From the NCBI GenBank assembly GCA_000739535.1, contig DF820471.1, positions 261,467 to 296,134 on the forward strand: a stretch of DNA of 34,668 bases, in the 5' to 3' direction. This stretch comes from Candidatus Vecturithrix granuli. Its GTDB lineage: Bacteria; Moduliflexota; Moduliflexia; Moduliflexales; Moduliflexaceae. The position numbers and the translations under genes are program-made. Below the pieces are notes generated by a model. That model searched no databases and had not been told where the DNA came from. It saw only the letters and a list, made by a program, of their open reading frames with translations. Positions 22,604 through 27,922 of this stretch are shown piece by piece; positions within the stretch are counted from its first letter, which is position 1, and the number at the start of each line of letters is the position of its first letter.

Positions 22604-22630
22604 TTGGCATGAACTTTGCTATACTATAAT
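22604..22630 (+). promoter_or_regulatory. candidate promoter of the riboswitch-fimbrial transcript
   Basis: TTGGCA (22604-22609) and TATAAT (22625-22630) are spaced by 15 bases, slightly short. Transcription would begin about 10 bases before the aptamer. Confidence 0.5.
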
Positions 22631-22647
22631 AGCAGAAGAAAGAATAT

Positions 22648-22734
22648 CCGCACGATACTGCCAAACCATTCGCGAGGGTGGGACGGAAAGCTACGGGTCT
22701 TCTGCAACACAGAAGATCGCCGGGTTGCCAAAGC
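22648..22734 (+). promoter_or_regulatory. cyclic di-GMP-I (GEMM-I) riboswitch aptamer
   Basis: The stem CCGC/GCGG closes the domain. Inside, GCCAAACCATTCGCGAGGGTGG forms the first hairpin with a GCGA tetraloop, followed by GGACGGAAAGCTACGGGTC, a variable stem (TTCTGCAACACAGAAG) and CGCCGGGTTGCC. These blocks match the GEMM-I consensus (GCAAACC, GNRA loop, GACGCAAAGC, CCGGGTTACC). Aligned to the Vibrio Vc2 aptamer, the guanine that contacts one base of c-di-GMP (G20) and the matching C are kept; an A at G20 would have pointed to cGAMP. It controls the operon starting at 22936. Confidence 0.92.
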
Positions 22735-22754
22735 GGTTCATAACTGACTATGGG

Positions 22755-22782
22755 AAACCGGCGTTTCAACGCCGGTTTTTTT
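22755..22782 (+). terminator. intrinsic terminator of the riboswitch expression platform
   Basis: AAACCGGCG-TTTCAA-CGCCGGTTT is followed by a T-run. The 5' arm (CCGGC) is also complementary to GCCGG inside the aptamer (22719-22723), so an antiterminator could form when ligand is absent. This would make ligand binding favour termination; the direction of control is inferred. Confidence 0.88.
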
Positions 22783-22935
22783 GTGGCATCTGATTGGCGG
22801 CAAGGCGGAACAGGTCAATTTTTTTTCACTAGTGATTTAACAACAAGAAAAGCGCGGAGGGTTAACAAGCGTTAATAGGAATTGTTCCTGATTAATTGCT
22901 GTTGGCAAACCGCTCATTACATAAGGAAATTTCTC

Positions 22936-23577
22936 ATGAAACATCTCAAAATATTTACCTATGGTCTAACAATCGTTGCGCTTCTTGGCGTCGTCGTGTT
23001 CTTTTCAGCATCACCATCACAGGCGCAGGCTGTGGGTAATGTGGACGTTCAAGTAATTGTGCCGGGAGTGCTGCAATTAAGGTACTACAGCGAATTGATT
23101 ATTAATGTTTCAGCAAATCATTTTGCAGATGTGGTTTTCGGAACAACTTCTGACACAGATGACGCCGGGTCAGCGAGTGTGAATTCCTGGAGCGACAACG
23201 CTGCTATTACGCCGAGTGCGCTGGGATCGAACACCGGAACGCAAGTTGTCGAAAACGCCTGGATGGTTCGGGCGGTCGGAAATCCACATGCCGGTAATAA
23301 CCTGCGTGTAACGGTTGCACTAAATACCGGCGCCGGCGCAGCCACATTAACGAATAATGCCGGCGCAGGTTTTGGCACACTGGAAATTAGTTCGGTTCAG
23401 ACACGATTGAATGGTGGCGCCGGTTTTGCTGGCAGCGTGGATTTTACATCGGCGGGGCCTGGCAATCCACAGTACGGCGATCTTGAACTTGGTCTGAACT
23501 TTGCAGATGCAAGCCATGCCGGAACCTATGAGAATACCTCAGCTCACCAGTTTACGATTACGGCAAGTCATATTTAA
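22936..23577 (+). CDS. exported pilin-like subunit of chaperone-usher operon
   Basis: The ATG at 22936 follows TAAGGAAA and opens a signal peptide (MKHLKIFTYGLTIVALLG to SQAQA). The protein has 213 residues. The mature part is beta-rich and Gly/Ala/Asn/Thr-rich, with no cysteine, starting VGNVDVQVIVPGVLQLRYYS. It ends THQFTITASH-like (AHQFTITASHI), a hydrophobic terminal strand that could take part in donor-strand exchange. As the first gene behind the riboswitch it is the best candidate for the main structural subunit. The family is not one I can name with certainty; spore-coat-U/DUF4402-like subunits have similar layout. Confidence 0.65.
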   Translation: MKHLKIFTYGLTIVALLGVVVFFSASPSQAQAVGNVDVQVIVPGVLQLRYYSELIINVSANHFADVVFGTTSDTDDAGSASVNSWSDNAAITPSALGSNTGTQVVENAWMVRAVGNPHAGNNLRVTVALNTGAGAATLTNNAGAGFGTLEISSVQTRLNGGAGFAGSVDFTSAGPGNPQYGDLELGLNFADASHAGTYENTSAHQFTITASHI

Positions 23578-23599
23578 CAAGGCGGTTTATAAAGTTTTC

Positions 23600-24268
23600 A
23601 TGAAGCACAGGAAAAAACCGGGTTTTTTGAAAAAACCCGGTTTTTATGGTTTACAGATATCTTTTCTGCTTGAAAAGAGCCTTCACTCAGCTCTTGCGAT
23701 AATGGTTTGTCTGGGGATATTGACGAATGCAGCCGAAAGCACGGAACGGTCAATACAGTTATCGTATCTTCAGCATCAGGCCTTGCTCGATCCGGTCACG
23801 TCTTTTGAATTGTTGGGCGGTCCGGCATATCAGGCTCTGCCAATCCGGAGCGATTCTCACGCTGCAACCCTGCTGGTCGAAGAAATTTCCCGTACCCTGC
23901 CATCGCTCTGGCAAATTCGCGTTTCCGAAAAGATGTCGCCCGGTTCTCTGCGCGTGAGTTACCAACTGACAGGCGCAAACGGCAAAGCCGGCCGCCTGAG
24001 CCACCTGGATTTCCCGAAAGCTGAAATTTCCGTGAGTCTTCAACCTCTGCCGCCGCGCGTTATCAAACAAGAAGAGATGCTGATTGAGGAAGAAGAGGGG
24101 GTAAACGTGGACGCGACAACCGCACAGACTCCTCCATCAAAAAGAGTCGTCAACATTCAGCGCTTCAATATTATCGAAGGCGGCGTGATAATTTCTTTTG
24201 ATCCGAGCCAGATTCAGTATGCCGGAACCTACGCCGGCACCCTGACAATTCTGATTCATGGACTGTAA
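23600..24268 (+). CDS. exported protein of fimbrial operon, function unknown
   Basis: Either ATG 23600 or TTG 23669 may be the start. The first places the hairpin at 23613-23645 in the coding region as KKPGFLKKPGF. The second starts right at the signal peptide (LEKSLHSALAIMVCLGILTN). Neither has a good ribosome binding site. From 23600 it is 222 residues. The mature part is beta-rich, has an acidic patch (EEEEG near residue 170) and ends IQYAGTYAGTLTILIHGL, another strand-like tail. It could be a minor subunit or tip/adaptor protein. The frame is supported by composition and neighbours only. Confidence 0.55.
   Translation: MKHRKKPGFLKKPGFYGLQISFLLEKSLHSALAIMVCLGILTNAAESTERSIQLSYLQHQALLDPVTSFELLGGPAYQALPIRSDSHAATLLVEEISRTLPSLWQIRVSEKMSPGSLRVSYQLTGANGKAGRLSHLDFPKAEISVSLQPLPPRVIKQEEMLIEEEEGVNVDATTAQTPPSKRVVNIQRFNIIEGGVIISFDPSQIQYAGTYAGTLTILIHGL
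23613..23645. repeat. perfect hairpin in subunit intergenic region
   Basis: AAAAACCGGGTTTTTT and AAAAAACCCGGTTTTT form a 16-bp stem with a 1-base centre. It resembles a bidirectional terminator. Related hairpins are at 25273-25305 and 32575-32609. Confidence 0.8.
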
Positions 24269-24288
24269 CGTGCCGTAAAAAAAATAAG

Positions 24289-24375
24289 GAAACTACAGGA
24301 ATGAGGAATAAGCAAGAATGTATGCGTGACATGCATGCAATCACCTTCTTGCTTATTCCTCATTCCTGTAGTTTC
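24289..24375. repeat. perfect 30-bp inverted repeat before chaperone gene
   Basis: GAAACTACAGGAATGAGGAA and the following AAGCAAGAA (24289-24318) are exactly complementary to 24346-24375, leaving a 27-base loop. It fills the gap before the chaperone start at 24388. There is no T-run beyond the few T in the arm end, so transcript processing or stability is more likely than termination. Confidence 0.9.
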
Positions 24376-24387
24376 AAAAAAGAGAGA

Positions 24388-25248
24388 ATGAAGATATGGC
24401 GCATACTTAACATTTTGGTCTTCTTGATGCTGGCATGGTATTCAGGAAATACATTGGCGCAGGCCCCGGCTGGGGCCATAGAGTTCGGAATTTCCCCCTC
24501 CCTCTTCCAACTGACAATTGGCGCACAGAATAAAACCGAATCCTTCCGGGTGTTTAATTTCGGCGCGCGTCCCATGAAATTCCAGATTAGCGTCCATAAT
24601 TGGGAAGTGGATGAAGCGTTTAACGTGCAGGTGATTCCCCCGACCGAACAATCGCTTGACCAGTGGATTGTCATCAATCCGGTTGAATTTACGGTTGCTC
24701 CGGGCAAATCACAGGTGGTAAGATTTGCGATTCGCCCCAGAGTGCAGCCTGAGCCAGGAGAACACCGCGCTATTTTATATACGTGTGAAGTCCCCATCAA
24801 AACAGAAAACCAATCCCAATCCAATATTGTCGGCTGCATTGGCGCAGCAGTGTATGGCGATTACGGCGAAATCAGCCGAATAGGGATTTTACATGATGTG
24901 ACGCTGGTCTCTGCAACAAATCCAGTACTGGCGCGGTTCGATATTTCCAGCGAGGGCAACGCTCATGTACGTATGGACGGGCAATATGCAATCTGGAAAG
25001 CCTCAGCGTATCCGGGGACTGAAAATACGACGCGGTTAGAGGATATGCAGGATGCTGAGAAATTGGCGGCGCAAGGAATTGCGGACGCCGGCGTTCTCCC
25101 GTCGTTACCCGTGCTGCCGGGTACGCGGCGCACTATGGAGCTTCAGACTTCGATGGTGCTAGCGCCGGGCGAATATGTTCTGGATATTAACGGCAGCCTC
25201 AGCGGAAATGCCATAGATCAGGGAATTCCGTTTAGTATCCCGAAGTAA
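24388..25248 (+). CDS. PapD-like periplasmic pilus chaperone
   Basis: The ATG at 24388 is chosen because a signal peptide follows directly (MKIWRILNILVFLMLAWYSG to NTLAQA) and AGAGAGA precedes it; an earlier ATG at 24301 lies inside the inverted repeat. The protein has 286 residues. Features of the chaperone family include GISPSLFQLTIG, SFRVFNFGARPMKFQISVHN, a W-I-x-x-x-P step (QWIVINPVEFTVAPGKSQVV), and RFAIRP followed by GEHRAILYTCEV. The basic residue in RFAIR corresponds to the subunit-anchoring Arg region. The role is to hold subunits in the periplasm and deliver them to the usher encoded next. Confidence 0.82.
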   Translation: MKIWRILNILVFLMLAWYSGNTLAQAPAGAIEFGISPSLFQLTIGAQNKTESFRVFNFGARPMKFQISVHNWEVDEAFNVQVIPPTEQSLDQWIVINPVEFTVAPGKSQVVRFAIRPRVQPEPGEHRAILYTCEVPIKTENQSQSNIVGCIGAAVYGDYGEISRIGILHDVTLVSATNPVLARFDISSEGNAHVRMDGQYAIWKASAYPGTENTTRLEDMQDAEKLAAQGIADAGVLPSLPVLPGTRRTMELQTSMVLAPGEYVLDINGSLSGNAIDQGIPFSIPK

Positions 25249-25272
25249 TTGATGGAAAATGTGTAGGTATCT

Positions 25273-25305
25273 AAAAACCGAGTTTTTGAAAAAACTCGGT
25301 TTTTT
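25273..25305. repeat. hairpin between chaperone and usher genes
   Basis: AAAAACCGAGTTTTT and AAAAACTCGGTTTTT form a 15-bp stem followed by T's, terminator-like. It lies 65 bases upstream of the usher start, so full transcription past it is needed for usher expression. Confidence 0.8.
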
Positions 25306-25369
25306 CCCTCAATCATGGCTACTGTCCTTTGAGAGTAAAGTACGCTTTGCTGCAACGCAGAGAAAAGTT

Positions 25370-27922
25370 ATGAAAATACGATCAAACATATTTCAGAGAT
25401 TTCTCTGCCTTTTTCTGCTTGTTTGGCTTTTGACAGAATGGGGGGCAGAGGTCCCTTTCGCTGATGCTCAGGACGATCTCATGGTTGTCGGACTGCTTAT
25501 TCGCGGCAAAGAAGTGGACATGGTGGAAGTTCTGCAACGCGAGGATGCATTTCTGCTGCCGCTCATTTCTTTGATCCGCGCCATTGGCGCGACTATCGAA
25601 TCATCGCTGACAACAGAGCGTCTGATCACGCCTTTAGGTTCGGTCTCGATAGAGGCTGGTGAACTGCTTGAAATCAATGGTATTAAGTATATCCACCAAC
25701 GCACGGTTGAAGAACGTCTGCACATTACCGTCGCTTTCGTTCCGGAAGAATTTGCTCTCTCCCTCGATATTCCCTGGAACCCGGGAGCGAAAGAACGTTC
25801 CGCCGCAGTGTCCGAGTTAGAAGCGCAATTTCATCCGCCGCGTTTCGGGCTTTCAACATTCAGGGAGAAGATTTCTTATATAGAACGAGAGGGGGAAAGC
25901 GTTTCGACCAGTTCAACGCTTTTAGGGGGGCGTTTGTTCGAAGGAGCCTGGCGCATTGAATTTGATTCCGATTTCAATGATCTTACCGGTATGAGGGACT
26001 ATACCTGGTATCGCTCCTGGAACAACACGCTGCTGCAACTCGGTCAGCAGCATCTCGCCTTACATCCGCTGCTGACAGGAGTTGAATTTACCGGCTTGCA
26101 ACTGGGATGGACCAACCAACCCTTAGAACGTTTTTCGCTTACTTCAACCCCCAGAGAATTGCTGCCGCGCTATTCCACCGTAGTACAGACCTTTCGCGGC
26201 CAGGCTGCGCCCGGGTTTTTAGCGCAGTTGCGCGTGGATGGTAGAATAGTGGATTACCAGGTGGTCGGATTGGACCGCAGCTATGAATTCACGGATGTGC
26301 CGATAACTTCAGGCGCGTTGACGCAAATTGAGGTCTATCTGTTTGATTATCACGATGCGCGTGTGCCGGCCGATATTCATGAATTTACGGTGACAAGTTC
26401 CTCGCTACTGCTGCCCAAAGGCAAACACGCATTGCTGGCCGGCATAGGCGGCAGTGGCAATCCGCTGGATGAATTCATCCAACCCGAATTGGCCCAGCCT
26501 TTGGAGTTGCAGAGTTTTTTGCAATGGCGCCAGGGTTTTTCGGAAAATCTCACGATTGAAGCCGCAGTGCAACAACATTCTGATGCATTTCAAGTTCAGG
26601 CCGGAATGATTGTGCGCGCCTTCGAATCCATCATTCTTGAAGCAGCCGGCGGTCTGTCAAATGACAAATTCGCCTATAATGTGAATTTGGAAACGATTTT
26701 TCCGCGCTGGCATTTGCTCGCCAATTCATCGTTTTTTCCCGAATCATATTCTTTATGGAGCGATTCGGGAAAAAACCGGACTCATAGCGCTGAACTTCAT
26801 TATCGAATCAACGACAGCATCCAGGTTGGCATAAAAGGAACGCATCATGAAACCGAAACCGAACAGAAAGCATTTGTGCTGCCTTTTGCGACATGGTCGC
26901 TGTTTTCGAAACTCTTTTTACGCGCTATGCCCAATTCGGACGGGGACTATGGTTTTGATGGCTATACCTGGCTTACACCTGCAACCCGGCTTTCATTTTT
27001 AGTGGAAGACACGACTAGCGTGGAACTTTCTCGCAATCTTGGTTCCCGCTACGGCGTGTCGCTTAGTGCAACTTTCGAAGACGGAAGGCTGGGCGAATAT
27101 GCTGCTATCTTCAGGCGTCATGCTGGACAGGGACGCGATCCTTATCTCCATACCGGCCTTACTGTGAGGGATGATAGCATCTATTATGTTGCCGGCGGGG
27201 GAGTGGATCTTTTCCCCGGTATTCAAGCTGAAGTGGTGTATCAAGGGCAGGCGTTGGATCAGACGCGACAGGAATCGGAAACTTATACGTTGATGTTCAA
27301 GCTTTCTACGAATTTCAGCATGGCAGGCGGACGTCTTTTTCCGGCGAGCACTGAATCGCTACGCCGCAATCAGGGTGCGATTGCCGGGAGAATTCAGGTG
27401 CAAACCTCTCCGGATTCAACAAAAACCTATGATCTTGAAAATATTACGATCATGATCGGACCTGCTCGCAGAGTCCGCACCAACCATTTCGGGAATTTTT
27501 TCTGCGGAAATTTGCAAGAGGGCGTCTATCCGGTGGAGCTTGATCTGGAAAATTTGCCCTTTGAGCTTGTCCCGGAACGCACTGTGTTGACCGCCCGCGT
27601 AGCCGCTGACGCTGCTACCAGAGTTGATTTTGTGGTACGGCCTGAGTACGGCATTGCCGGGCGCATTACCGACCATACAGGAAACACGCTTCAAGGCGCA
27701 TACATTGAGTTGCTTGACGAGCAAGGAAACATGATCAAACACACCCTGACCGATCAATTCGGGCTGTATCGGATTGATGGACTTCCTCCAGGAATCTATC
27801 GTCTGCGTGCAGCAACGCAAAGTCCTTCCGATCCTTTCATGGCGTCACCGGAACGAGAGATTGAAATTGTTGATGACTTCTTATTCGGCCAGGATATCCA
27901 ACTTCCTACTTTATCACAATGA
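25370..27922 (+). CDS. usher-like outer-membrane protein with carboxypeptidase-regulatory-like domains
   Basis: The ATG at 25370 begins a signal peptide (MKIRSNIFQRFLCLFLLVWL to PFADA); a start at 25259 would lie before the hairpin. The protein has 850 residues. Residues about 30-150 resemble a periplasmic N-terminal domain. A long alternation of short strands from about 170 to 660 fits a beta-barrel. PGFLAQLRVDGRIVDYQVVG followed by YEFTDVPITSG parallels the 'V-x-P-G-x-x-x-V-x-x-N-G' region near the usher plug. The C-terminal 150 residues hold two transthyretin-like units (GIAGRITDHTGNTLQGAYIE, then LYRIDGLPPGIYRLRA). Ushers export and assemble chaperone-bound subunits; carboxypeptidase-regulatory-like ends are known in the alpha-type and related ushers. 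The call rests on operon context and these motifs. Confidence 0.75.
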   Translation: MKIRSNIFQRFLCLFLLVWLLTEWGAEVPFADAQDDLMVVGLLIRGKEVDMVEVLQREDAFLLPLISLIRAIGATIESSLTTERLITPLGSVSIEAGELLEINGIKYIHQRTVEERLHITVAFVPEEFALSLDIPWNPGAKERSAAVSELEAQFHPPRFGLSTFREKISYIEREGESVSTSSTLLGGRLFEGAWRIEFDSDFNDLTGMRDYTWYRSWNNTLLQLGQQHLALHPLLTGVEFTGLQLGWTNQPLERFSLTSTPRELLPRYSTVVQTFRGQAAPGFLAQLRVDGRIVDYQVVGLDRSYEFTDVPITSGALTQIEVYLFDYHDARVPADIHEFTVTSSSLLLPKGKHALLAGIGGSGNPLDEFIQPELAQPLELQSFLQWRQGFSENLTIEAAVQQHSDAFQVQAGMIVRAFESIILEAAGGLSNDKFAYNVNLETIFPRWHLLANSSFFPESYSLWSDSGKNRTHSAELHYRINDSIQVGIKGTHHETETEQKAFVLPFATWSLFSKLFLRAMPNSDGDYGFDGYTWLTPATRLSFLVEDTTSVELSRNLGSRYGVSLSATFEDGRLGEYAAIFRRHAGQGRDPYLHTGLTVRDDSIYYVAGGGVDLFPGIQAEVVYQGQALDQTRQESETYTLMFKLSTNFSMAGGRLFPASTESLRRNQGAIAGRIQVQTSPDSTKTYDLENITIMIGPARRVRTNHFGNFFCGNLQEGVYPVELDLENLPFELVPERTVLTARVAADAATRVDFVVRPEYGIAGRITDHTGNTLQGAYIELLDEQGNMIKHTLTDQFGLYRIDGLPPGIYRLRAATQSPSDPFMASPEREIEIVDDFLFGQDIQLPTLSQ

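Follow-up and report, generated by a model that had tools for sequence, protein, structure and literature searches.

Chaperone-usher fimbriae are usually controlled by proteins or by phase variation, and the locus described here raises the question of whether an operon of this type might be controlled directly by an RNA that senses c-di-GMP. In the window, by which we mean the whole 34,668-nucleotide stretch of DNA that was analysed, the initial annotation had picked out a GEMM-I aptamer with a GCGA tetraloop, the conserved G20 and its matching C. The Rfam search that it proposed was run, and the aptamer was recovered together with each of these details.

22651-22733, + strand: c-di-GMP-I riboswitch aptamer of the GGC subtype, matched by RF03167 (c-di-GMP-I-GGC) and RF01051
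22666-22681, + strand: aptamer hairpin with the GCGA tetraloop at 22672-22675, from the sequence and the RF03167 alignment

In particular, RF03167 matched the aptamer in cmscan with 64.1 bits against a gathering score of 59 (E 4.3e-13), and the parent model RF01051 did so with 62.9 bits against a gathering score of 35. (The GGC subtype was reportedly described in a 2017 survey of candidate structured RNAs.) The tetraloop closes the stem CCAUUC/GGGUGG, and in the RF03167 alignment the bases that contact the ligand are kept, with G20 at 22660, A47 at 22687 and C92 at 22728, in what we take to be the numbering of the Vc2 structure. Positions 21-22 and 45-46 read CC/GG in place of GC/GC, so the base pairs are kept. 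The element is a c-di-GMP-I (GEMM-I) aptamer, and it is predicted to bind c-di-GMP. Note that in predicted folds the 5′ leader sequence GCAGAAGA (22632-22639) pairs with TCTTCTGC (22696-22703) in an arm of the aptamer; this pairing, too, might compete with the aptamer.

The element does not stand alone. It is one of 29 GEMM-I aptamers in a genome of 8.38 Mb (21 contigs), most of them with the opposite layout, as set out below; relatives carry 3-4 each. Because contamination of the assembly stands at 10.75% by the tool's figure, a small number of the 29 may derive from a different organism. The genome also encodes 20 GGDEF domains. In the aptamers at C18:511148, C4:76917, C18:508542 and C21:116509, position 20 is an A, which we take to be the change linked to cGAMP, and these four possibly sense cGAMP in the same genome as aptamers with G20. 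Their presence, and the fact that Geobacter uses GEMM-Ib riboswitches to regulate pili and surface genes (PMC6456294), would fit a window aptamer that senses cGAMP, as GEMM-Ib does, or some other dinucleotide. Position 20 of the window aptamer, however, is G and not the A associated with cGAMP; for that reason we did not adopt the cGAMP reading for this aptamer, where we judge it highly improbable, and we infer that the ligand is c-di-GMP. (Separately, the aptamers at C15:68327, C18:508542, C18:516605 and C21:116509 have a variable hairpin loop with a palindrome-like repeat insert of up to ~60 bases.)

What ligand binding might do can be read from the sequence between the aptamer and the operon, for which the initial annotation had described an intrinsic terminator and a complementarity between GCCGG in the aptamer and CCGGC in the terminator arm.

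22755-22782, + strand: intrinsic terminator, with hairpin AAACCGGCGTTTCAACGCCGGTTT at 22755-22778 (-15.1 kcal/mol) and a T-run to 22782
22718-22723, + strand: CGCCGG, aptamer 3′ strand able to form an antiterminator, from folding and shuffle comparison
22758-22763, + strand: CCGGCG, terminator 5′ arm and complement of 22718-22723, from folding and shuffle comparison

The terminator is present as described and is a strong one, and the complementarity is real and one base longer than claimed (CGCCGG/CCGGCG); a duplex of equal strength arose in just 13 of 2000 shuffles. Since the terminator starts 21 bases after the aptamer and does not overlap it, the two can coexist. The antiterminator was the sole strong alternative pairing found by folding, and it breaks up both aptamer and terminator. 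In a thermodynamic folding model, transcripts ending at 22766-22771 favour the antiterminator over the ligand-free aptamer by ~10.6 kcal/mol, whereas at full length the terminator together with the aptamer (-48.4) lies slightly ahead of the antiterminator (-46.9). The full-length gap is only ~1.5-3 kcal/mol, which counts against an OFF switch and means that the outcome of switching rests on kinetics. As modelled, this folding profile is the picture expected of a kinetic OFF switch.

The mechanism that these folds suggest is as follows. Without c-di-GMP, CGCCGG would leave the aptamer once CCGGCG is made and would pair with it; this pairing would block the terminator, and the fimbria operon would be transcribed. 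With c-di-GMP, the aptamer would retain CGCCGG, the terminator would form and transcription would stop before the operon. Such an arrangement resembles that of the Cd1 c-di-GMP-I riboswitch of Clostridioides difficile, an OFF switch of the same aptamer class that acts on a flagellar operon (PMC9262584). Both have a free downstream terminator and an antiterminator that joins the aptamer 3′ strand to the terminator 5′ arm; in the window the folding model finds this antiterminator to be exclusive with both aptamer and terminator. The two are also alike in their predicted ligand-promoted termination. They differ in that Cd1 controls flagella, whereas the window element precedes a fimbria-like operon and lies behind a probable sigma-54 promoter.

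Comparison with the other leaders in the genome bears on this polarity. An ON-type layout was assigned computationally to 13 of the 29 leaders and visually to a further 4; in these, the aptamer strand GCCGGGUUGCC doubles as the terminator 5′ arm, and the ligand should therefore prevent termination. This layout matches that of the GEMM-I ON switch of Geobacter pilM, reported alongside the OFF layout of Cd1 (PMC9262584). As in this genome, GEMM-I copies in Geobacter are numerous (17 in G. sulfurreducens), precede surface genes and occur in tandem (PMC9262584, PMC6456294); unlike the window aptamer, with its G20 and OFF layout, the Geobacter pilM/GEMM-Ib switch has cGAMP as ligand and ON polarity. 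A free terminator after the aptamer was found in 7 of the 29 leaders, the window's included, and in six of these seven, again including the window, folding indicates that an aptamer strand pairs with the terminator 5′ arm at the decision point. The seventh, at C20:124123, is without the pairing, which counts against the OFF reading. The remaining 5 leaders have an unclear or translational-looking layout. When matched and swapped flanks of the antiterminator were compared, 2407 of 40320 permutations were as good as the matched arrangement (p ~0.06); matched flanks thus have only a slight pairing advantage over swapped flanks, and the evidence from covariation is weak. (Among the ON-type aptamers, three stand in tandem before one gene at C14:491403, 491643 and 491831, and a pair stands before one gene at C2:18039 and 17810. 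At C9:106244-106322 the aptamer end GCCTCC lies opposite a GGAGG ribosome-binding site, so translational control is possible there; behind this aptamer, a short reading frame ends early and is followed by a folD-like gene.)

We therefore had to weigh whether the window riboswitch is real but ON, with ligand binding somehow favouring read-through in the manner of most other leaders in the genome. That majority speaks for it, as does the general tendency of c-di-GMP to raise fimbriae more often than it lowers them, a point that also counts against an OFF switch. The window terminator, however, is clear of the aptamer, and the sole strong alternative pairing disrupts the two of them together. An ON switch seems quite unlikely to us. 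Ligand-promoted termination, which the initial annotation had proposed, is upheld as the most likely polarity by the modelled preference for the antiterminator and by a pairing that the window shares with five other leaders.

The aptamer had also been said to lie behind a promoter. A promoter candidate is indeed present upstream of the aptamer, but it is better read as a sigma-54 site than as a sigma-70 one.

22604-22620, + strand: probable sigma-54 promoter TTGGCATGAACTTTGCT, with GG at 22606-22607 and GC at 22618-22619, agreeing with 12 of 13 consensus positions

With both strands scanned, TTGGCATGAACTTTGCT was the only site in the whole window to agree with at least 12 of the 13 positions, and the GG and GC of its -24/-12 element are spaced 10 bases apart, as in the pattern YTGGCACGNNNNTTGCW. 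Of the genome's 29 GEMM-I aptamers, 14 have a similar site, agreeing at 11 or more of 13 positions, within the preceding 120 bases; the background rate was 0.6% for random 120-mers and 0.01% when upstream regions were shuffled. One such sigma-54-like site precedes each of the six OFF-type leaders that have the pairing, and the genome encodes one RpoN. Counting against sigma-54 is an overlapping sigma-70 reading, made up of TTGGCA (the hexamer noted earlier, which falls within TTGGCATGAACTTTGCT), a 15 bp spacer and TATAAT at 22625-22630. If this were an ordinary sigma-70 promoter, its resemblance to a sigma-54 site would be incidental. The TATAAT is perfect and TTGGCA is common to both readings; the 15-bp spacing is poor, however, a sigma-70 scan did not call the site, and the -24/-12 motif recurs before other aptamers of this genome and in G003, a genome of the same family that belongs to another genus. 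A sigma-70 promoter is on balance unlikely, and the best promoter candidate is probably the sigma-54 -24/-12 site. A separate promoter after 22782, which would allow the operon to escape the riboswitch, did not appear in a sigma-70 scan of the + strand from 22782 to 22936.

Behind the terminator lie four genes on the + strand, the first of which starts 154 bases after the T-run, in agreement with the distance of about 150 bases given in the initial annotation.

22936-23577, + strand: exported pilin-like subunit, 213 aa, with a signal-peptide-like N-terminus; identity by position only
23600-24268, + strand: second exported protein, a possible second subunit, ending in AGTYAGTLTILIHGL; start codon uncertain
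24388-25248, + strand: PapD-like periplasmic chaperone, 286 aa, PapD_N at 24.7 bits (cut-off 23)
25370-27922, + strand: divergent usher, 850 aa, with a C-terminal CarboxypepD_reg-like domain; usher profile alignment score 32.2

A description of this operon as chaperone-usher-like holds for the chaperone, through its PapD_N match, and through the alignment of the large protein with an usher profile; the usher is nevertheless very divergent, with no match to Pfam Usher. As for donor-strand pilin subunits, neither exported protein matched a family (no Pfam match for 22936-23577, for which tblastn likewise found nothing, and none for 23600-24268), and no tip adhesin gene was recognised in the operon. 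The closest match found for the chaperone was the chaperone of the MP1 plasmid of D. radiodurans (26.5% identity, E 3e-5). The MP1 operon (DR_RS15760-DR_RS15775) has the same order as that in the window, with two small exported proteins, a PapD-like chaperone and a usher-like protein of ~720 aa; its first subunit matches SCPU weakly, and its large protein matches Usher weakly, at E 7e-5 and short of the cut-off. No Rfam riboswitch was found in four Deinococcus loci. (In Deinococcus plasmid chaperone operons the large protein is annotated as hypothetical and looks like an unrecognised usher.)

The identity of the 850-aa protein comes from profile comparison. Searched against Pfam it gave no Usher (PF00577) match at E up to 1, and no NCBIfam usher model matched it. 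With an E limit of 10, Pfam Usher matched nothing in the genome, and none of the 4 genomes of the phylum that were searched gave a match. No relatives of the protein appeared in the phylum's other three genomes searched, nor in scans of genome contigs with the usher and with a Deinococcus usher alignment, and tblastn of the usher in plasmids matched essentially only the C-terminal CarboxypepD-like domain. Pairwise comparison with the Deinococcus usher gave no significant similarity, hhalign against the Deinococcus usher alignment alone was weak, and a structure predicted without an alignment reached a pLDDT of 32. However, a profile built from 5 E. coli K-12 ushers and 4 Deinococcus usher-like proteins aligned with the 850-aa protein over 730 columns, full-length, in global hhalign, with a score of 32.2, whereas none of 60 shuffles exceeded 14.0 and none of 47 decoys exceeded 12.0. 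In hmmsearch the protein ranked first, but with an E of only 0.04. With a score above all controls beside so modest an E value, we regard the protein as a homologous but divergent usher that is not formally a member of the family.

These results also bear on whether the operon builds a fimbria at all. The large protein could be some other outer-membrane protein, and the chaperone could serve something else; the missing Pfam Usher match, the modest hmmsearch E value, the subunits without a family and the lack of a recognised adhesin would all fit. Set against this are the full-length alignment, well above every control, and the Deinococcus operons, which share the gene order and have weak SCPU and Usher matches of their own. 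We consider an operon that makes no fimbria very unlikely, and a divergent chaperone-usher gene set the better description. Taken as a whole, the locus is in our view probably a fimbria operon transcribed by sigma-54 and gated by a transcriptional OFF riboswitch, as one copy of a cassette found genome-wide. The operon would be transcribed from the sigma-54 promoter and then gated, so that the fimbria would be made when the sigma-54 activator is on and c-di-GMP is low.

The genes behind the genome's aptamers mostly encode exported surface proteins, which carry PEP-CTERM or end in LLWT[K/R]. OFF-type leaders precede four genes with a PEP-CTERM motif, at C17:515397, C16:317216, C17:371057 (where the motif lies inside the reading frame) and C15:68327, and the genome has one exosortase. 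In G003, each of the three aptamers has a sigma-54-like site (10-11 of 13) and leads a protein that ends in a PEP-CTERM-like tail, as read by eye; an OFF-type terminator is present in two of the three. The window operon appears to be a case in which the aptamer cassette has been placed before a chaperone-usher operon. Sigma-54 control of PEP-CTERM surface proteins has a likeness in Zoogloea, where control of PEP-CTERM genes by RpoN/PrsK-PrsR is reported (PMC9012009); unlike in the window, no riboswitch is described there.

A C-terminal LLWT[K/R] or ILWTK, encoded by varied codons, ends exactly 8 riboswitch-led and otherwise unrelated exported proteins, at C18:503000-520700, C4:75500-95400 and on other contigs. 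The DNA pattern for LWTK followed by a stop occurs 25 times in the genome, compared with 1 in the control, with a dense run at C18:497060-522882. The ending is possibly an unknown C-terminal sorting signal; no paper on it was found.

Within a partial literature that included few subscription papers, no paper was found in which a c-di-GMP riboswitch controls a chaperone-usher operon, PEP-CTERM genes or a sigma-54 promoter. The aptamer class and the type of platform are known; what appears new is their combination with this target operon and with sigma-54, and the presence side by side of both polarities before surface genes. At this locus an RNA sensor would control a chaperone-usher fimbria directly, coupled to sigma-54. 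Given that most copies of the cassette are ON-type, one set of surface proteins would give way to another when c-di-GMP rises. We put forward only tentatively, as somewhat short of an even chance, that the sigma-54 and cyclic-dinucleotide riboswitch cassette, with ON and OFF versions and perhaps versions for c-di-GMP and for cGAMP, brings about such an exchange genome-wide. If it does, a change in one messenger would turn one set of coat proteins on and another, including the chaperone-usher fimbria, off; and with 29 leaders of two opposite predicted polarities, mostly before exported proteins, the sorting of a coat into on and off sets by one messenger becomes directly testable.
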